Shown here: positions 1-9,688 of the stretch, in pieces | Numbering within the stretch: the stretch's first letter is position 1 | Layout: each line of letters begins with the position of its first letter | Source: Bryobacterales bacterium | GTDB lineage: Bacteria; Acidobacteriota; Terriglobia; Bryobacterales; Bryobacteraceae | Length of the DNA stretch: 11,634 nucleotides | NCBI GenBank assembly: GCA_003164075.1 | Contig: PLRZ01000201.1 | Span: 8,176 to 19,809, forward strand | Reading direction: 5' to 3' | Notes under the pieces: model-generated | Told to the model about the DNA's origin: nothing | Database searches by the model: none | What the model saw: only the letters and a program-made list of their open reading frames with translations | Translations under genes and position numbers: made by a program

Positions 1-531
1 GTTTCAATTATCGGGGTTACGGCGCATTCGATGGCGGGTGACCGGGACAAGTGCATTCGCGAGGGGATGAACGACTTTCTATCGAAACCCGTGGACCTGC
101 ACCTCCTGGCGGAAGCGCTCGCGAAGTGGATCCCCGGGACCGCTCCGCGGGTCGCGGTCCAAGCCGGCGAACAGGCCGCCTCAGACGCATCGGCGGCGAT
201 TTTCGATCCCGAGGCCTTATTGAAGCGTCTCATGGGAGACAGGCAGCTTGCCGGCATCCTGGTCAAGGGGTTCCTGGACGATGTTCCATCGCAGTTGAAC
301 AATCTGCGAAAGCGGTTCGACGAGGCGGATCAGCGCGGCGCCCGCTTGCAGGCGCACACACTCAAAGGTTCGGCGGCGGCTGTTTCGGCAGGCGGCCTAC
401 GCGCCATTGCCCAGGAGATGGAGCGGTCGGCCGCCGCCGGCCAGCTCGATAATGCCGGCGAGCTTCTGTTCCGGGCGGCGGAAGAATTCGAACGGCTCAA
501 GAGCGCACTGGAGAACACCGGATGGCTATGA
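1..531 (+). CDS. Hybrid sensor histidine kinase, C-terminal part (receiver end + Hpt domain)
   Basis: The 5' part lies outside the window; the frame is open from base 1. The first residues (V-S-I-I-G-V-T-A-H-S) and the following F-L-S-K-P-V are the end of a response-regulator receiver domain: the conserved Thr of the fourth strand and the conserved Lys of the K-P turn are visible, while the phospho-accepting Asp is upstream of the window. A linker follows, then a histidine phosphotransfer (Hpt) domain with the motif H-T-L-K-G-S-A; the phospho-accepting His codon is at 355-357. This layout (receiver then Hpt at the C-terminus) is typical of BarA/EvgS-like hybrid kinases feeding a multi-step phosphorelay. 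No output response regulator is visible here. The stop TGA lies 19 bases before the next gene, so the three plus-strand genes are probably co-transcribed. What the kinase senses cannot be told from this end. Confidence 0.9.
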   Translation, partial: VSIIGVTAHSMAGDRDKCIREGMNDFLSKPVDLHLLAEALAKWIPGTAPRVAVQAGEQAASDASAAIFDPEALLKRLMGDRQLAGILVKGFLDDVPSQLNNLRKRFDEADQRGARLQAHTLKGSAAAVSAGGLRAIAQEMERSAAAGQLDNAGELLFRAAEEFERLKSALENTGWL

Positions 532-536
532 ACCCT

Positions 537-543
537 GGAAAGG
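537..543 (+). promoter_or_regulatory. Ribosome binding site of the ABM-PAS gene
   Basis: GGAAAGG lies 7 bases before the ATG at 551. It supports this start over in-frame codons further upstream, which would overlap the kinase gene heavily. Confidence 0.6.
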
Positions 544-550
544 TGGCGCC

Positions 551-1240
551 ATGATCGTCGCAATGTCGCGCTTTCGCGTAGAGAACAGCCGCGAGCAGGA
601 TGTCAGGCAGGCATTTCTGGACCGGCCGGGATTCGTGGACAATCAAGCAGGGTTTATGGGCCTTGAGGTGTTTCAGGACAGAACGGATTGCGCGGTTTTC
701 TATTTGGTCACCCGCTGGAGCGATGTTTCCCGGTTTCGAACCTGGCACTCCGGCCACGCGCATCGACGCTCGCATGAAGCCATGCCCAAAGGGCTCAAGC
801 TCGACAGTGCATTTACCGAACTTCGAATCCTGGAACGGGTGGAAGACGATCGGGGCGGGCAAGTGTGGGAGCACTTCACCGGCGACTGGGAAGCGCTTAC
901 ACGAGCGTATTTGGCGTCGAGCACCACGGTACACGGCGTGGTTGCGAACGCGGACGGCGTCATTCTGGGCGCAACCGCGGCAATGGAGAGACTCCTGGGT
1001 GGCGAGTCTGGCCGGCTGAACGGACAACCGCTGTGGAAGTTCCTCACTCCTGAATCCGCAAAGGAGCTCCGCATCCGGGTAGACGCGGGAAGCCGCCAAT
1101 CCGCATTGCGCTTTCCGGTGACATTCATTGGCGCCGATTGCGCAGGGCGCGTGCTCGGCTGCAACCTCGATGTCCAACCGGACGCATTTGCGCTGCTGGG
1201 CGAGGAGCTTCACACTCCGGAAGGAGGGTCGAGGAAATGA
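551..1240 (+). CDS. ABM-fold (IsdG/HmoA-like) monooxygenase domain fused to a PAS-like domain
   Basis: A 229-residue cytoplasmic protein with no signal peptide or membrane segment. Residues 1-95 look like a dimeric alpha/beta-barrel antibiotic-biosynthesis-monooxygenase domain: an F-R-V strand, P-G-F-x-G-L-E-V, F-Y-L-V-T-R-W and a W-H-S-x-A-H helix. Against the IsdG family (recalled, not aligned by machine), Trp65 and His75 keep the spacing of the catalytic Trp67 and His77. The catalytic Asn7 appears to be Ser6, so haem degradation is possible but not assured. Residues about 105-220 look like a PAS domain (V-H-G-V-V-A-N-A-D-G-V-I-L, later L-N-G-Q-P-L-W-K-F-L). The gene follows the kinase by 19 bases and overlaps the B12-binding gene by ATGA, so it is probably translationally coupled to it. 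The ABM domain could instead be a ligand sensor or a small oxygenase for another substrate. Domain calls are fairly sure; function is not. Confidence 0.8.
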   Translation: MIVAMSRFRVENSREQDVRQAFLDRPGFVDNQAGFMGLEVFQDRTDCAVFYLVTRWSDVSRFRTWHSGHAHRRSHEAMPKGLKLDSAFTELRILERVEDDRGGQVWEHFTGDWEALTRAYLASSTTVHGVVANADGVILGATAAMERLLGGESGRLNGQPLWKFLTPESAKELRIRVDAGSRQSALRFPVTFIGADCAGRVLGCNLDVQPDAFALLGEELHTPEGGSRK

Positions 1241-2325
1241 CCGATTTTCCTCGATACGACAGAACGGCACTGGGCGACCGATTGCAGCAAGTCAAGCCTC
1301 AGGTGGCGGAACAAGTTACTCAAGTATTCCTGGAAAAACATCCTGACTGGGTGTTGAAGTATGGCGAGAGAGCCAGAAAGTTCGGCATTGAGGACGCGCA
1401 GTTTCACATCGATTTCCTGCGGGGTGCAGTGGAAGCCGGCAGCGTCCAGGCGTTTGAAGAGTACTGCGAATGGGCGGCTGGCCTGCTGAAGTCCCGGGCC
1501 ATCGGCAGCCGCTTCCTGGTCGAAAATCTGACGCAGATCGAGACCGCCCTCGGTTCCGAATTGTCGCCGGACCAGCAGACGGTGGTGGCCCGCATGATGG
1601 AGGGCGGCCGCGCGGCATGCGATCGCGAGAAGACTCGCCGCGCCCAACCGGACAGCCCCCTGGCTCTGACCAGGACGGTCTATCTGCAGTCCATTCTGAT
1701 CGGCGCGAGAGCAGGCTCGGTGCGGATTGTGGAAGAGGCGCTGCAAAACGGCGCCGGCATTTTCGATCTCTATGTTCAAGTCTTCCAGGAATCTCTGTAT
1801 GAGGTCGGCAGATTGTGGGAAGCGGGTAAGATATCCGTAAGCGTAGAGCACCGGGCAACGGCGATCACTCAGTTCGTGATGGCGAGGATATACTCCCGCG
1901 CATTGCCTGTGCCGCCATCGACTCCGCTGCGCCAAGCCATTGTCACCGGCGTTGTGGGCGAGTTCCATCAGATCGGCGCGAACATGGTGGCCGATGTACT
2001 CGAAAATGCCGGGTGGAATGTTGAGTTTCTGGGCACGGATGCCCCCCATGACGGAGTCGTCGAGGCGGTTCTGGCGCAGAATTCGGACCTGTTGTGCATA
2101 TCGGCTACCATGCTCTTCAACGTGCCAAACGTGGTGAGGTTGATTCGAGATCTTCGTGCCCGTTCACCGAGGCTGCAGGTACTAATAGGCGGCGCGGCCT
2201 TTCGTGCAAGCCCCGGCCTTTGGGTGGAAATCGGCGCGAATGGTTTTGCGGCGGACTTGACTACCGCGATCGACGTTGCGGATCGGCTTGTGTCCGCGGT
2301 TTCGCCGCGAGCTTTGAGCGGTTAG
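1237..2325 (+). CDS. Cobalamin-binding photoreceptor-like protein (CarH-type light-sensing module, no DNA-binding domain)
   Basis: 362 residues, starting at the ATG that overlaps the previous stop; AGGAGG (1222-1227) and GAGGAA (1231-1236) lie just upstream. Residues about 145-220 form the four-helix B12-cap domain and 230-355 the Rossmann B12-binding domain. Two diagnostic motifs are visible: W-x9-E-H (Trp194, Glu204, His205), which in CarH packs against the adenosyl group, and E-x-H-x2-G (Glu242, His244, Gly247), where His244 should be the lower axial cobalt ligand. S-A-T-M (289-292) and G-G-A-A-F (318-322) complete the B12 fold. CarH has a MerR-type helix-turn-helix at its N-terminus; here residues 1-140 are instead an all-helical domain (H57-I-D-F-L, F73-E-E-Y-C-E-W) resembling globin-like sensor domains. 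The expected role is light sensing by adenosylcobalamin in the cytoplasm, with output to a partner protein. A plain corrinoid carrier of MtaC/MetH type is less likely because of W-x9-E-H. Confidence 0.88.
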   Translation: MTDFPRYDRTALGDRLQQVKPQVAEQVTQVFLEKHPDWVLKYGERARKFGIEDAQFHIDFLRGAVEAGSVQAFEEYCEWAAGLLKSRAIGSRFLVENLTQIETALGSELSPDQQTVVARMMEGGRAACDREKTRRAQPDSPLALTRTVYLQSILIGARAGSVRIVEEALQNGAGIFDLYVQVFQESLYEVGRLWEAGKISVSVEHRATAITQFVMARIYSRALPVPPSTPLRQAIVTGVVGEFHQIGANMVADVLENAGWNVEFLGTDAPHDGVVEAVLAQNSDLLCISATMLFNVPNVVRLIRDLRARSPRLQVLIGGAAFRASPGLWVEIGANGFAADLTTAIDVADRLVSAVSPRALSG

Positions 2326-2450: not shown

Positions 2451-4139
2451 CTAGCGAGCTGCCGGCAGGAACTTCTGGCAGTCGTCCAGGTTGGCGTGCA
2501 GTTCGCTCAAGGCGGCCAACAGGTCCGAGGGTAGAGCGTTGGTGGAAGCTTTACCCGCCGTCATCCCCAGCATCTGGGATACCAGGATCTCGACACGCCG
2601 GGCGCTCTGGAAGACGTCTTCCGCGGCAGGTTGCCAAGCGGTGTGGCCGGCAGGATGAACACTGGGCGCCGTGCCACCCAAGGAGGACAACGCCGGAACC
2701 AGAATCCGCTCCATCGCGCCGACCTTCTCAAGGAGCGCGGCGGCGTGCTTGCGGGATAGCTCGTGCAGTAAATCGATATCCCTGGCGCCGAGTTGCGTTT
2801 CGTTTGTGGGCGAGAACTTTTGCGCCAGCTTACGCAGCGCGTACACCCGCGGCATGGCCGCATCGTCCAAATCTAGCAATTGCGTGCTGAAACGGTCGAA
2901 CTCGGCATGTCCCCCGAGGTGCTTTTCCAGGCGCGGCTGGAGGGGCGAAGCGGCGGCGCTGCCGACGGAACCGCTGGCGATGGCCGGTTCGGCGGGGATA
3001 GCCACCGAGTGCACCGGACTGAACTCCACTTCCACGTGCGGCAGGTTCGCCAGCGAAGCGCGGATTTCGTTCTGCCGGCGCGGAGAAATACCTTCGCCGC
3101 CGGTGACCACGACCTTGCCATCGGCCAGAGCGACGTCTTCCAGCTCACCCAGGTCGGCCTCGATCGCGCGTAGTGCGGACAGCACTTGTAACTCGTCGGA
3201 AATCGAGGCCGTCGACCCGGGTGCGAACGCGGCCGGCCGGCTTGGTGGTTCGGCGGCGCGCGCCGGAACTTCCACGCGTGAAGCGACGGAACCACCGGCG
3301 CTCTCCGTGGAAGTCTCCGCTATCTCGCTCAACTCAATCCATTCCCCATCGCGAAACTCCAGCCGCTCTTCCACCGGTTCATAGTCGTCGGTGTTCAAGG
3401 TGAGGCTGGCAGCCTCCAGTTCGCCTTCGGCGGAGACGGTTCGGATGCGGGTAAAATGCTCCGACGGTTCCTGCGGGTTGGATACCGCAGTCACCTCGTC
3501 GGTGATTTGAACCTGCGCATCGCGCCACGCCCGGAAGGCATGGGCGCTGAGGGGATCCATCAAATCGAAATTGGCAGCCTGGAGCAGCGCGGCTACCGCC
3601 GGCGGCTCAACCACTTCGACCAGCGGGGTCCGCGCTCCGGCCAACCGCGTAAACTCCTGCTGGTGGCTGGTGCGCACGCGAATGCGGTGCGCCGGACGAG
3701 GCTTGCTTTCGGAAACTGCTACGGCCTTTCTCAATATCCCAGCGGCTTGAACAGAAGGGGCTTGGCGGAGCTGATGGAAAGTTGTGAGAACAATCAGCAC
3801 CGCCAAGCCCGCTACAAACGCCCATCTCGGTACACCCGAATGTACGAGGGGACGCATCAGCCGTCCAAGGAGAGACGTGTTGGCCAAAGACTCATCAATT
3901 CGTGAAAAATCGCGGTACAGGTCGCGCCAGGGTTGCGGCGCTCCCGGCATTTGGGCTGCCAGTACGTTGCGGTAGCTTTCGCATTCCGCGAGGGAATTCT
4001 TCAATTCTTCCAGTTCGGCGCGGCATGGGCCGCAGGATTCCAGGTGGCGCTCCACCTTTGTGGCGTGGCGCGGGGAGAGTTCACCGTCCAGATAGCGGAC
4101 CAGGTATCGACCGGAATGGGGCTGGAAAAGGCTACTCAT
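2451..4139 (-). CDS. Large membrane-spanning zinc-finger anti-sigma factor
   Basis: 562 residues, partner of the ECF sigma factor just upstream, whose last 8 bases it overlaps (ATGAGTAG). Residues 1-60 form a zinc anti-sigma (zf-HC2) domain: H32-x3-C36-x2-C39, with His8 a plausible fourth ligand, so the cytoplasmic part should hold the sigma factor. Residues about 105-123 (W-A-F-V-A-G-L-A-V-L-I-V-L) form one transmembrane helix. The remaining 430 or so residues should lie in the periplasm: a beta-rich region (about 140-275), a low-complexity Ala/Pro/Ser linker, a short alpha/beta region at about 315-372 (G-K-V-V-V-T-G-G-E) that looks slightly BON-like, and a helical C-terminal part. I do not recognise a family for the periplasmic part. 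It is much longer than usual anti-sigma factors and may be the signal-sensing part. Regulated release of sigma is inferred, not seen. Confidence 0.85.
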   Translation of the reverse strand: MSSLFQPHSGRYLVRYLDGELSPRHATKVERHLESCGPCRAELEELKNSLAECESYRNVLAAQMPGAPQPWRDLYRDFSRIDESLANTSLLGRLMRPLVHSGVPRWAFVAGLAVLIVLTTFHQLRQAPSVQAAGILRKAVAVSESKPRPAHRIRVRTSHQQEFTRLAGARTPLVEVVEPPAVAALLQAANFDLMDPLSAHAFRAWRDAQVQITDEVTAVSNPQEPSEHFTRIRTVSAEGELEAASLTLNTDDYEPVEERLEFRDGEWIELSEIAETSTESAGGSVASRVEVPARAAEPPSRPAAFAPGSTASISDELQVLSALRAIEADLGELEDVALADGKVVVTGGEGISPRRQNEIRASLANLPHVEVEFSPVHSVAIPAEPAIASGSVGSAAASPLQPRLEKHLGGHAEFDRFSTQLLDLDDAAMPRVYALRKLAQKFSPTNETQLGARDIDLLHELSRKHAAALLEKVGAMERILVPALSSLGGTAPSVHPAGHTAWQPAAEDVFQSARRVEILVSQMLGMTAGKASTNALPSDLLAALSELHANLDDCQKFLPAAR

Positions 4140-4656
4140 CGCGCACCTTCTTCAGCCGCAGCAGGGCACGCCGCAGGAACTCGCCGACAGCCGAGGCGCT
4201 GATCCCCAGCGTGTGAGCGATCTCAGGATAGCGAAGACCTTCCATCCGCAAGAAAAGAACGCGCTTCTGCTGTGCCGAGAGGCCTTTCACGGCGGTATTC
4301 AGCCGGGTCATTTTCTCGCGGTCCAGCAGATCCCGCTCGGCGTTGACCGCCGGGGACGCCAGCCGGGCCTCAAAGGCCGGATCGAACCGCTCTTCGGCCG
4401 ATTGGCGGGCGCGGACCTTCAGACCGTAGTTGTGGGCAACGCGGAACACCCAGCCCCGCAGACTCTCGATTTTCTCGCCCTTTTTGAGGTTCGTATAGAG
4501 CCGCAGAAAGACTTCCTGCACGGCTTCCTGCGCCTTCGGCGGATGCACGCCGAGCGTCAGCAGGTACCGGTAGACGTCCTCGCGGGTCTCTATATATAGC
4601 TGAGCCACTTGGTCTTGTAACTCCGAGCTCGCTTGCGTCTGGCGGAAGATTGCCAC
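4132..4656 (-). CDS. ECF-type RNA polymerase sigma factor
   Basis: 174 residues, the usual ECF length. Region 2 spans about residues 18-85, with A-Q-E-A-V-Q-E-V-F-L-R-L-Y (42-54) and the -10-binding stretch S-L-R-G-W-V-F-R-V-A-H-N (65-76). Region 4 spans about 118-171, with L-S-A-Q-Q-K-R-V-L-F-L-R and a helix-turn-helix Y-P-E-I-A-H-T-L-G-I-S-A-S-A-V. The start is GTG at 4656-4654, preceded by AGGTGA (4663-4668) six bases away; no ATG in the same frame is closer than 4722, and a TGA intervenes. It is followed, with an 8-base overlap, by its anti-sigma factor, so both should be made together. Whether it drives its own promoter cannot be shown. Confidence 0.92.
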   Translation of the reverse strand: MAIFRQTQASSELQDQVAQLYIETREDVYRYLLTLGVHPPKAQEAVQEVFLRLYTNLKKGEKIESLRGWVFRVAHNYGLKVRARQSAEERFDPAFEARLASPAVNAERDLLDREKMTRLNTAVKGLSAQQKRVLFLRMEGLRYPEIAHTLGISASAVGEFLRRALLRLKKVRDE

Positions 4657-6196: not shown

Positions 6197-9100
6197 TTAG
6201 AATGCGAACCGGCCCGATACCTGAATCGTGCGGGCATCGCGATAACCGTTCGCCTGCCCGAACTGGCCGTTGCTGAGGGAGTTTCCAGAACCGGGATTGT
6301 CACCCTGGAAGCCGGTGTTGATGCCCCAGAGTTCCGGATGATTGGCCACATTGAAGACCTCGAACCGGAGCGTCATCTTCACCCGTTCCGGGGTAATTGC
6401 GAAGCTCTTCATGAGGGCCATATCCAGATTGCTGAGACCCGGCAGGTGAAGAGAATTGCGGCCCAGGGAGCCCCACGTGCCATCCGCCGGACGGGTGAAC
6501 GCCGTGAAATTGAGCAGTTCGGAGCCGAGACCGCTGGCGTAGGGATCGCCAACAACGTTGGGGAACTGCCCGCCGTTGTTGCCGACGTTCAAGCCATACA
6601 GGCCGCCGTTGGAGGTGACGTTGAACGGCATTCCGGACTGGTACCGGAATACGCCGCTGAGTTCCCATCCGTTGAAGGCCTGCCTGGTGAAGGCGTTCGA
6701 GAATGAACCGGTCACCTTCGGGAGCGTGTACACCACGTCGAGGGAGACCACGTTCGGCTGGTTGTACCCCGCATTGGCATAGCTGCACTTAATGCAGAAC
6801 GGGTTATTGATGGCGTCGGAGTCGTTGTCGTTCGTGTCCATCGTCTTAGACCAGGTGTAGTCGAAGTTCACGGCCAGATTATTGGCGAAACGACGGTTGA
6901 TGCGCAGCATCAGGGCGTCGTAACGCGCGTAGCCGTTGGTTTCGATCGCCGTCAGGTTGCCCCATCCGCTATACGGCAGAAGGGCGCTGGTCCAGCCATT
7001 GACCGATGCCGACAGGTTGTTGTTCAAGAAATACCCGGCGGGAAGAGCATTGACTGCCCGCTGGTCCATCAGGTGGACGGAATGGCTGCCGGAGTAGGAG
7101 AGATCCAGAGCGAACTTGGCCGGCAACTGGTGCTGCAGACCCAGGTACCAGGAGTAGACGCTCGGCATGGTGTTGTTGGTGGGCCAGATTGTCATCGAAG
7201 GCGGTTGGATGGGCGACGTAGCCGTCCCGAGGCCGGCGGTGCTGAAGGTAGAGACGTTCTGGTTGTAGACCGATCCCGAGTAGAGATTGGGGAACTGGGC
7301 GCCCGCGCCGAAACTGAAGTTGTTCTGGCGGAGGCGTTCGTTGAACAGAGCAGCGCCGGCGCGAAGAGCCGTCTTGCCATCGCCAAACACGTCCCAGGCA
7401 ATACCCAGACGGGGTTCGGGGAACGACTTCGCATTGGAGAATCCGGCTGGCGTGCCAGCGCAGGGATCGCAGATCATGCCGAGATTCTGAAGCGCCGTCA
7501 AAGGATTGGCTTCGATGAAACCAGGCCCATATCCGTTCACCGTGCTGTTGCTGGTGTTGATGACGGGGGCATTCGCCTTGTTGTACTTGCTCAGATCTAC
7601 GCTGTAAAGCGTCCAGTTGCCTTCGCCACCGACCGTGCCGCCGCGAACGACGGTGTAAGTGGGAGCCATGTGGACGAAGCGAAGACCGTAGTCGATGGTC
7701 ACGCGCTTGCTGACTTTCCAGTTATCCTGGGCGTAAGCGTCGAATTCCCAGAAACGGAAATAGGGGAAAACGGCCCCGCTCTCATTTGTAAAGTTCGAGA
7801 AGTTGCCCAACATCATGTTGGCAATCCCCTGGTTGGTGTCCAAAGCCATGGTGGAGTTGCCGTTGAAGTTGATGTTGCCTTCCATGCCCCAGGTTCCGGT
7901 CTGCGCCTTGTCGTCGCGATTGAAAAAGACGCCGAACTTGAAGTTGTGGCTACCCTTTACCCACGAAACGTTTTCGGTGGCGGCGTAGTCTTTGCCCCAG
8001 TTATGCCAGCCGGGGTCGCCCAGACTGAAGTTCAGGGCTCCTGCGCTCAGATCGGGAACGGAGTTGGTAATGTTGGTCGCCGGGAAGATCTGGTTGAAGT
8101 TGGCGCCCAGCGTATTGCGGTCGATCGGGTTGGTGCCAACCACCGACAGGGACTGCGACTGGTGGTTGTAAGAGAGAATCGTCTCGGACGCCAGTGTGGG
8201 CGCAAATGTGGTCACCAGGTTCCAGGCCCAGGAACTGCCCGGCTTGGGCCGCGCTTGCGTCTGGAGCGGGAAAGGCTCGTTGCCCCAGACACCCTGGGCG
8301 ATGGTCTCTTTCTGGTAATCGTTCACCCAGCGGAAGAAACTGGTCATTTTGCTGCTGATATTGTAGTCCAGGCGCAGCATGTCCTGATTCTTGATCAGAT
8401 CGTCGGGGGCGTTGAAAAAGTCCCGTACGTAACCCGGCTGTCCGGGCGTGGCGCCGAGGCTCGCGTAACCGGGGATTCCGGTGTAAATCTTCAAGTAGGC
8501 GGAGCTCTGCGAATTCCATTGCGATTGTGGAACGATATTGCCCGGGTAAGGAGTTCCACCGGTGACGTTGCCGGAGCCGTCGCGTGTGATCGTCCCGGGT
8601 TCAAAAACGGTGCCGTTCTTAAACTGGGGAGCATATGTCATGGGGGTGGTAAGCAGCCATTGGGAGAAATTCCCGCCCAGGATCTGAGAGTTGGGGATAT
8701 CCGTGTGGTTGCTGCCCGGCAGATTGCGGCGCGTCATTTCCCGGTTGTAGAAGAAGAAGAACCGCTTGTCCGCCTTCGTCGAGATTTTCGGGATGGGGAC
8801 CCAGCCGCTGAAGTTGCCGCCGAACTGGTTGTAACGCAGTTGCGGCTGCAACCCGTTGCATTGCACGCACTTGGCGTCGAAGAAATTGTTGCGGAGGTAC
8901 TCGTACAGCGTCCCGTGGAACTGCGAACCGCCGGACTTGGTTTGCACTGCAATCACCATGCCGGAGTTGCGTCCGTATTCGGCGTTGAAGCCGCTCTGCA
9001 GCACGCGGAACTCGGCAATGGTGTCGACACTGGCTTGCGTGTACTGGGACTGGTTGTCGCCCACGTCGATGTTGGGAGATCCGTCCAGGTACATGTTGTT

Positions 9101-9688
9101 CTCAGACCCGCGTCCGCCAAGAGCGTGGAACTGCGACACGTCGTTGAAGTTGACGTTAAAGTCGCTCTGGGCCGAGCTGCCCATACCTGGCACGGTACTC
9201 ATCAACGAGGTGAAGTTCCGGCCATTCATGGGCAATTCCGCCATCTCGGTCTTGTCGACAATGTAGGATTTGTCCATGGTGTTGGTGGTAACCACCGGTG
9301 TGGCATCCGCTTCCACGGACACGACTTCCGTCATGTTGCCGACTACCAGCTTGACCTGTCCCACGTCCAATTTGGTGTTGACATCCAGGGTGACCGTGAC
9401 TTCGGCCTTCTTAAACCCTGCTTTTTCAACGTTAATGGTATACCGGCCGGGTTCCAGATCGATGACCTGAAACCGGCCCGCTTGATCCGTACTGCTTTGC
9501 CGCGCGGGGCCTCCCTTAACCGCATCCTGAATCTTAACTGCGGCGTCGGGAACAAAGCCACCGGTGGCGTCTACAACGGTACCGCTGATGTACTGGGATT
9601 GCGCCATCGTCGGCTGCGCAATCAGCGTGAGCAAGATCGCTGCAAATACGGCGACCGTTACGCGGCTCCAGATGCTTCTCACGTTCAT
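6197..9688 (-). CDS. TonB-dependent receptor, Oar-like, with N-terminal carboxypeptidase-regulatory domain
   Basis: 1163 residues, the usual size of acidobacterial Oar-like outer-membrane receptors. A signal peptide covers residues 1-29 (hydrophobic V-A-V-F-A-A-I-L-L-T-L-I-A, cleavage likely after T-M-A). Residues about 31-115 form a carboxypeptidase-regulatory-like beta-sandwich (I-S-G-T-V-V-D-A, G-R-Y-T-I-N-V-E-K-A-G-F). The plug follows at about 125-255 (E-L-P-M-N-G-R-N-F, A-E-Y-G-R-N-S-G). The rest is beta-barrel, ending in the aromatic V-S-G-R-F-A-F expected for outer-membrane insertion. Three C-x2-C pairs occur (C274-V-Q-C277, and near residues 740 and 965). ATG at 9688 is preceded by AGAGGT (9692-9697), somewhat close. 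Substrate unknown; related proteins in this phylum are often linked to carbohydrate or peptide uptake. A terminator follows, so it is probably the last or only gene of its transcript. Confidence 0.93.
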   Translation of the reverse strand: MNVRSIWSRVTVAVFAAILLTLIAQPTMAQSQYISGTVVDATGGFVPDAAVKIQDAVKGGPARQSSTDQAGRFQVIDLEPGRYTINVEKAGFKKAEVTVTLDVNTKLDVGQVKLVVGNMTEVVSVEADATPVVTTNTMDKSYIVDKTEMAELPMNGRNFTSLMSTVPGMGSSAQSDFNVNFNDVSQFHALGGRGSENNMYLDGSPNIDVGDNQSQYTQASVDTIAEFRVLQSGFNAEYGRNSGMVIAVQTKSGGSQFHGTLYEYLRNNFFDAKCVQCNGLQPQLRYNQFGGNFSGWVPIPKISTKADKRFFFFYNREMTRRNLPGSNHTDIPNSQILGGNFSQWLLTTPMTYAPQFKNGTVFEPGTITRDGSGNVTGGTPYPGNIVPQSQWNSQSSAYLKIYTGIPGYASLGATPGQPGYVRDFFNAPDDLIKNQDMLRLDYNISSKMTSFFRWVNDYQKETIAQGVWGNEPFPLQTQARPKPGSSWAWNLVTTFAPTLASETILSYNHQSQSLSVVGTNPIDRNTLGANFNQIFPATNITNSVPDLSAGALNFSLGDPGWHNWGKDYAATENVSWVKGSHNFKFGVFFNRDDKAQTGTWGMEGNINFNGNSTMALDTNQGIANMMLGNFSNFTNESGAVFPYFRFWEFDAYAQDNWKVSKRVTIDYGLRFVHMAPTYTVVRGGTVGGEGNWTLYSVDLSKYNKANAPVINTSNSTVNGYGPGFIEANPLTALQNLGMICDPCAGTPAGFSNAKSFPEPRLGIAWDVFGDGKTALRAGAALFNERLRQNNFSFGAGAQFPNLYSGSVYNQNVSTFSTAGLGTATSPIQPPSMTIWPTNNTMPSVYSWYLGLQHQLPAKFALDLSYSGSHSVHLMDQRAVNALPAGYFLNNNLSASVNGWTSALLPYSGWGNLTAIETNGYARYDALMLRINRRFANNLAVNFDYTWSKTMDTNDNDSDAINNPFCIKCSYANAGYNQPNVVSLDVVYTLPKVTGSFSNAFTRQAFNGWELSGVFRYQSGMPFNVTSNGGLYGLNVGNNGGQFPNVVGDPYASGLGSELLNFTAFTRPADGTWGSLGRNSLHLPGLSNLDMALMKSFAITPERVKMTLRFEVFNVANHPELWGINTGFQGDNPGSGNSLSNGQFGQANGYRDARTIQVSGRFAF

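Follow-up and report, generated by a model that had tools for sequence, protein, structure and literature searches.

In the AerR-CrtJ and AppA-PpsR systems of purple bacteria, a protein of the B12 or SCHIC type acts on a PAS-domain protein, and the output is a DNA-binding repressor. A predicted light sensor composed of a bilin globin and a B12 domain was reportedly placed in signal-transduction contexts by Schneider et al. in 2022. Photocobilins, in which a cobalamin domain is joined to a bilin-binding globin (photoglobin), were named in 2024; their adenosylcobalamin (AdoCbl) domain can occupy the N- or the C-terminal part of the chain, and the function of the stand-alone members was called less clear (PMC10979010, main text). 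Here, we analyzed an 11,634-nucleotide stretch of a Bryobacterales bacterium (contig PLRZ01000201.1, positions 8,176 to 19,809; hereafter the window) that opens with three plus-strand genes: gene 1 (1–531), the C-terminal 176 amino acids of a probable hybrid histidine kinase; gene 2 (551–1240), an ABM-PAS protein of 229 amino acids; and gene 3 (1237–2325), a photocobilin-like protein of 362 amino acids with photoglobin and cobalamin-binding domains. The best overall explanation of this operon is probably a light-input phosphorelay module built on a photocobilin with an ABM partner. A preliminary description of the same DNA, which had proposed a light-responsive phosphorelay of a hybrid kinase, an ABM-PAS protein and a B12 photoreceptor, is partly supported: its parts were right and its wiring largely so, and the bilin-binding globin in gene 3, which it missed, shifts the reading to an operon for photocobilin signalling in which ABM is the partner.

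The photoglobin occupies the first part of gene 3 (1258–1575), where Pfam recognized no family over the first ~110 residues. A profile of this segment built from 13 sequences (A3) returned 47 PDB matches at E-values up to 10, of which the best 34 were phycobiliproteins, the phycobiliprotein-derived smURFP and the photoglobin of SasPcob (1.2e-4 to 0.14), with allophycocyanin at 1.2e-4 and SasPcob at 2.7e-4; a profile of the whole gene 3 protein placed SasPcob first (3.5e-41). In SasPcob, Asp270 holds the biliverdin and Trp296 lies near its ring D (PMC10979010). In the profile alignment, where the PDB chain index equals the published numbering minus 6 (checked on His108, chain residue 102), these two residues fall on D53 (1393–1395) and W79 (1471–1473) of gene 3. 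Both are invariant in the 27 rows of the photocobilin alignment A2 and kept in all 30 distinct ABM-linked photoglobin domains tabulated, a table that leaves out one separate globin (locus G599, L072/L117) with Asn at the Asp53 position.

The remainder of gene 3 encodes a four-helix cobalamin cap (B12-binding_2, 1681–1890; Pfam 7.2e-13) and a Rossmann cobalamin-binding domain (B12-binding, 1936–2235; Pfam 2.3e-20) that includes the GxxxP element. Reading the motifs GRLW-x9-EH (residues 191–205), GEFHQIG (241–247) and LGTDAP (265–270) along the protein, we found each of the four elements that SignatureFinder names (PMC11796333), GxxW, EH, GxxH and GxxxP. As the preliminary description had stated, both light-sensing motifs of CarH are present, namely W194-x9-E204-H205 (1816–1851; 27/27 rows of A2) and the lower axial ligand motif E242-x-H244 (1960–1977). 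On this sequence evidence, we assign gene 3 with high confidence to the photocobilins, that is, to photoreceptors predicted to carry AdoCbl and a bilin, here in swapped domain order with the globin first and the cobalamin domains after it; from its motifs, the protein is predicted to bind AdoCbl and biliverdin and to respond to green and red light. What the preliminary description called a B12 photoreceptor thus keeps its AdoCbl light-domain motifs, but as part of a photocobilin with a bilin-globin and not as a CarH-type single-chromophore sensor. A CarH-type regulator was rejected, as Pfam found no MerR-type DNA-binding domain in gene 3; the CarH model, which has its cut-off at 400 bits, scored 42. 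Furthermore, W194 is directly followed by Glu, at a position held by Gln in SasPcob, Tyr in AbDPcob and Arg in CtMerR (PMC11796333), and on this account we do not expect the protein to adopt the His-His light state of CarH. In a related side observation, a photocobilin at L002:1834-3252 is fused to a REC domain, the REC annotation coming from its near-copy P0236.

The packing of the three genes agrees with the earlier coordinates: 19 bases (532–550) separate gene 1 from gene 2, and genes 2 and 3 share an ATGA overlap. To place this arrangement in context, two sets of loci were assembled. Briefly, using the ABM-PAS alignment as query, we retrieved 42 loci, 24 of which were strong ABM loci (L001–L023 and L042); the next gene encoded a photocobilin or its globin part in 21 of the 24, including the B12 domain in 19 and the globin part alone in two (L006 and L015). 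The photocobilin gene of L004 is split by a frame break, the globin part is cut off by the contig end in L006 and, three genes on from ABM, also in L005, and a GGDEF reading frame resembling the end of an ABM-PAS gene lies between ABM and photocobilin in L009. L013 ends inside its ABM gene, and L001 begins at its ABM gene, the same genome holding a second ABM gene with a photocobilin before it (L118). At L015:8001-9416, an ABM gene is followed by a globin gene ending ahead of any B12 domain and by a kinase gene whose start lies within HisKA; part of this locus has probably been deleted or misassembled. The other 18 loci, all from Myxococcota (L024–L041), have distant ABM matches and form a contrast group: none has a B12 neighbour, Tyr replaces the ABM Trp in 18/18, and no His is found where the alignment reaches the His position. 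Comparison of the protein lists by eye paired ABM-PAS with B12 matches, through a longest contig of identical size, in at least 18 cases.

The second set was selected from the B12 side by searching the photocobilin profile in five phylum samples (297, 188, 349, 149 and 151 genomes), which gave 52 counted loci once those of four ABM-chosen centre genomes were left out. An ABM gene adjoined 8 of the 13 loci with a strong photoglobin (L045, L047, L059, L061, L069, L070, L073 and L075) and 1 of the other 39 (L072) (P = 1.4e-5, Fisher test, kinship ignored), where strong means at least 75 bits, a line drawn after the table was seen. The pairing of ABM and B12 genes recurs in several phyla and is more than chance, and the check for neighbouring homologues that the preliminary description had called for was run and found ABM and photocobilin genes adjoining in other genomes. 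On the cobalamin-domain tree, the ABM label needs 12 changes, 4 of them forced by well-supported branches, so the link has been gained or lost repeatedly. Loci fetched twice were merged by hand, and near-identical loci (for example L008/L011, L004/L006 and L017/L023) are not independent; phylum searches scored some candidates per genome, making copy numbers lower bounds, and their loci carry ~1.5 kb per side, less at contig ends.

Gene 1 would connect the module to a kinase. Its reading frame is open at the window start and closes with a stop codon at 529–531, the 5′ end lying beyond the window. It holds the tail of a REC domain (about 4–120, the last third of the domain; Pfam Response_reg 1.5e-5, below cut-off), followed by an Hpt domain (about 262–504; Pfam 1.5e-13) in which the motif AHTLKGSAA, with the phospho-acceptor His, bears out the earlier Hpt assignment. 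The hybrid kinase of that same description has a more divided outcome, since Pfam found no HisKA/HATPase kinase domain inside the window portion of gene 1, whose upstream part lies outside, but over all 176 residues it shares 67% identity with the C-terminal part of a protein of 720 residues that has the complete make-up PAS-HisKA-HATPase-REC-Hpt (Pfam). This homologue is encoded at L042, the nearest named relative found, a Bryobacterales metagenome-assembled genome (MAG) whose cobalamin domain is 80% identical; we take this MAG to belong to Acidobacteriota. There, the complete kinase gene directly precedes an ABM remnant and then the photocobilin gene; the photocobilin cluster of the locus (P0139) appears on 6 contigs. 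Because gene 1 is homologous to a complete kinase adjoining the same module, reading it as the C-terminal end of a hybrid histidine kinase is a good inference, and we regard this identity as probable. Furthermore, residues 29–189 of the L042 kinase match positions 101–261 of the ABM-PAS alignment (A1) at 86 bits, revealing a PAS family common to the kinase and the ABM-PAS protein, which suggests a shared docking surface. The PAS domain of gene 2 itself spans approximately 914–1201 by the A1 profile, with PpsR among its PDB PAS matches; its Pfam match is weak (3.9e-4, slightly under cut-off), whereas that of the ABM domain is clear (3.7e-11), and the ABM+PAS fusion reported earlier is thereby retained.

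Kinase domains lie beside or fused to the module at no fewer than 14 ABM-linked loci (at least L005, L011, L012, L014, L015, L020, L023, L042, L112 and L114–L118), the evidence at L023 being an ATPase domain only. GGDEF domains occur at L009, L016, L018, L019 and L021, and on the opposite strand at L022; L007 has the GGDEF motif only. Pfam scans covered selected neighbour proteins, and these kinase and cyclase counts are minima. ABM and kinase form one chain at L005 and L118. When the ABM segment of the kinase at L118 served as query, in a search limited to proteins of 289–919 amino acids and with the domain column counted by eye, HisKA and/or HATPase accompanied ABM in 65 of the best 120 of 167 matches, the query's own copy included, and GGDEF did so in 6 of the same 120, while 0 of them joined ABM and B12 in a single protein; the kinase share is raised by the length of the query (525 amino acids), which is itself an ABM kinase. 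Some related modules have diguanylate cyclases and others kinases, and a phosphorelay is therefore one output of several. Coupling of the module to a kinase is likely, and the earlier proposal that the B12 and ABM-PAS proteins are tied to a kinase gains from the conserved neighbourhood and the ABM-PAS-kinase fusions, with the reservation that cyclases serve as outputs too.

The ABM-(PAS)-histidine kinases P0241–P0330 make up a large family, for which the source names, where given, often combine an HmoA-type haem-degrading monooxygenase with a kinase. Long ABM-PAS proteins (L111, P0111, P0112 and others) have no enzyme domain at their end but a coiled coil together with a LPxCxxCxK...SHGYCxxC segment that resembles a zinc ribbon.

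The ABM domain of gene 2 (551–841) belongs by profile comparison to the haem-degrading, IsdG/MhuD/HmoB-like branch. Profile A4 matched MhuD, HmoB and IsdI with E-values near 1e-10, compared with only 0.003–0.008 for ABMs of the antibiotic type; its single best match, TT1380 (2.3e-16), is uncharacterised. Judged by these profile scores, the domain is nearest to haem-degrading MhuD, HmoB and IsdI among characterised proteins. The protein search for gene 2 gave 140 homologues, of which 120 were listed. Elsewhere, in G085, canonical haem oxygenase and photoglobin form one protein with a B12 gene beside it, and similar fusions occur in G1014, G1026 and G1063; their photoglobin matches are weak (14–26 bits), with Asp and Trp kept. 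At G599 (L117:7771-10616, minus strand), an ABM with the Asn-Trp-His (N-W-H) triad accompanies genes for a B12 protein, a separate photoglobin and a histidine kinase, the Asn having been read by extending an ungapped alignment by three residues. Taken together, the haem oxygenase-photoglobin fusions and the N-W-H ABM of G599 indicate that a haem-cleaving enzyme of some kind recurs beside the bilin globin, and the fusions, combined with the likeness of ABM to MhuD and IsdI, suggest a local supply of bilin. That ABM is the bilin source is a serious candidate reading, which we place a little short of an even chance. Where the preliminary description had the ABM-PAS protein as a sensor or adaptor, with haem, oxygen or redox state perhaps among the inputs, the likeness to haem-degrading enzymes suggests that it may supply or sense a bilin or haem. 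Fusions of canonical haem oxygenase with a photoglobin-like domain, joining a chromophore-maker to a binder, stand at L048:2162-3451 (minus strand), L100, L101 and L102, with a B12-binding gene beside one of them.

From the observed domain make-up, the conserved motifs and neighbourhood, the ABM-PAS-kinase fusions and the complete homologous L042 kinase, we infer how chromophore binding, photochemistry, kinase contact and ABM function may fit together in the light-input module. In gene 3, AdoCbl would be ligated by H244, its adenosyl group held by W194, E204 and H205, and side by side with it a bilin would be held by D53 and W79 of the photoglobin. By analogy with SasPcob and AbDPcob, green light, or red light acting via the bilin, would break the Co-C bond and lead to a change of shape or oligomeric state. 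The changed photocobilin may then contact the PAS domains of the ABM-PAS protein and of the PAS-kinase-REC-Hpt protein whose C-terminal part is encoded by gene 1; this contact would set the flow of phosphate through Hpt to a regulator encoded elsewhere. ABM would handle haem, most likely making bilin or delivering it to the adjoining globin, and otherwise serving as a haem or bilin sensor. In its fullest form, the proposal describes a widespread system in which a dedicated, altered Ser-Trp-His ABM, joined through PAS domains to the kinase, would cleave haem and feed bilin to a photocobilin, so that the chromophore maker would belong to the signalling complex and the relay would read both light and haem turnover; this complete version we put forward tentatively, as a possibility that may well not hold in all its parts.

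The following observations, on ABM, on its link to the module and on the bilin, weigh against the light-input module as a whole. IsdG-type enzymes require an Asn-Trp-His triad, and replacement of Asn by Ala in LFO1 reduced activity (PMC5557675). The corresponding positions of gene 2 are S6 (566–568), W65 (743–745) and H75 (773–775). Among 57 ABM sequences (25 taken from loci and 32 from the database or the window, some of them not seen next to a photocobilin), the catalytic Asn is absent and Ser stands in 57/57 at the position aligned to the Asn of MhuD and TT1380, while Trp is kept in 57/57 and His in 55/57; in addition, the ABM of L116, which adjoins a photocobilin, lacks the Trp. At G599, where the ABM triad is canonical, the separate globin is the one with Asn for Asp53. 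The haem oxygenase family PF01126 was found in 0/23 and 1/9 ABM-linked genomes, and this absence is uninformative alone because the phylum background is merely 4/149; we dropped it as proof that ABM makes bilin.

The uniform change from Asn to Ser makes a haem- or bilin-sensing role almost as likely as bilin supply. ABM would in that case be a non-degrading sensor of haem, bilin or oxygen that reports through PAS, and the module would join light with haem or redox state. Such a sensor accords with a triad whose Asn is lost while Trp and His are retained, and its direct fusion to PAS-kinase or PAS-GGDEF outputs is as expected of a sensor. Stand-alone ABM genes of about 100 amino acids are, however, common in the same place, and a true haem oxygenase fused to photoglobin elsewhere, together with the canonical N-W-H ABM at one locus, also weighs against it; we hold the sensor possible and somewhat doubtful.

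Regarding the link of ABM to the module, no ABM was found around 5 of the 13 strong photoglobin loci (L044, L046, L062, L087 and L088), wider stretches included. At L042, ABM-PAS survives as a remnant, with the photocobilin and the upstream PAS-kinase-REC-Hpt retained, and ABM seems dispensable there. The state of the gene was observed at L042:5842-9253 and also at L043 and L120, where it is apparently cut to about 49 codons with its middle lost. Photocobilins lacking ABM often lack the Asp as well (for example L049, L051, L052, L065, L077, L079 and L088), and others without ABM keep it (L044, L046, L062, L066, L080 and L087). An association between D53 and ABM is seen; with 3 usable pairs, it is not independent of ancestry and was dropped as a test. 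Ancestry may account for the Asp pattern as much as function does.

Finally, the window lineage lacks the bilin-attaching Cys: G50 stands at the phycobiliprotein attachment position, where the 30 ABM-linked photoglobins have Cys in 21, Gly in 6 (that of the window among them) and Tyr in 3. This Gly leaves room for a B12 part that senses light alone, the globin being structural and binding bilin poorly or not at all, in the manner of AbDPcob, with green light as the only input to the kinase; AbDPcob keeps the fold and binds biliverdin at only about 20% (PMC10979010). D53 is nevertheless invariant here, its replacement by His being the likely cause of weak binding in AbPcob, and SasPcob binds biliverdin with no Cys (PMC10979010). 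By analogy with SasPcob, the bilin of the window lineage would sit non-covalently, and we consider a green-only input unlikely.

Chance adjacency of the three genes, with a kinase fragment unrelated to the B12 protein, would be in keeping with a window that holds only the end of a kinase gene and with the many related loci that have a cyclase or in which no kinase gene was found, but L042 has the same order with a complete kinase and kinases adjoin or are fused to the module in several phyla, leaving chance very improbable. Weakest of all, the idea that gene 3 is an MtbC1-like corrinoid methyl-transfer protein, prompted by the source name 'methanogenic corrinoid protein MtbC1', typical of many database entries, and by NCBIfam corrinoid-protein matches, was rejected as scarcely credible, because those matches lie far under the curated cut-off (best 62 versus 370 bits), a Pfam scan of eight proteins of the window showed no methyltransferase, and the protein carries both a bilin globin and W-x9-EH and ranks photocobilins first in the PDB profile search (3.5e-41).

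Downstream of the trio, the window encodes an anti-sigma/sigma pair, a glycosyltransferase, an outer-membrane receptor and a TPR protein, the glycosyltransferase alone on the plus strand. The extracytoplasmic function (ECF) sigma factor and its zf-HC2 anti-sigma protein (2451–4656, minus strand) look ordinary, as does the outer-membrane receptor with a carboxypeptidase-like N-terminal domain (6197–9688, minus strand), which is presumably of the Oar-like kind. No link between the trio and the genes after it was seen within the window.

The cross-phylum gene set, with its ABM protein and PAS kinase, names candidates for the partners of photocobilins and for their source of bilin. Bilin production by the Ser-Trp-His ABM would make it a chromophore-forming enzyme of a new kind, whereas a role confined to haem sensing would mean that the kinase integrates light and haem. 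Under either outcome for ABM, a kinase switch driven by red and green light could be useful in optogenetics.

Among the literature matches listed, which do not cover the 2022 photoglobin paper, no title or abstract opening pairs ABM with a photocobilin. The word 'monooxygenase' is absent from the main texts of PMC10979010, PMC10151467 and PMC11796333, and the main text of PMC10979010 makes no mention of heme oxygenase, monooxygenase, histidine kinase or operon. Compared with the systems described there, gene 3 resembles SasPcob and AbDPcob (PDB 8J2W, 8J2X and 8J2Y) in combining a W...EH and E/DxH cobalamin domain with a photoglobin, keeps both the Asp and the Trp that contact biliverdin in SasPcob, and differs from both proteins in its N-terminal photoglobin; a stand-alone form acting on partners was proposed for photocobilins and is likewise proposed here (PMC10979010). 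With CarH (5C8A-5C8F and 8C31), gene 3 has the cobalamin light-switch motifs in common, but it lacks the DNA-binding domain, has Glu after the Trp and adds a bilin globin. BBAG-2 clusters bring together a bilin globin and a B12 protein, and the enzyme that makes the bilin is encoded close by or at another genomic site; they do so with separate genes, a canonical haem oxygenase and a bilin reductase (PMC10151467), whereas the window has a fused protein and ABM, and the four-gene set of G599 resembles them with ABM replacing haem oxygenase. Gene 2 shares the ABM Trp and His with the IsdG family (IsdG, IsdI, MhuD, HmoB and LFO1) and departs from it in having Ser for the Asn of the triad and a fused PAS domain. 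The PDB profile matches include AerR (7te2), AppA (4hh0) and PpsR (4hh2), and the operon is like the AerR-CrtJ and AppA-PpsR systems in setting a B12-type protein beside a PAS partner, with the difference that the output here is a kinase.

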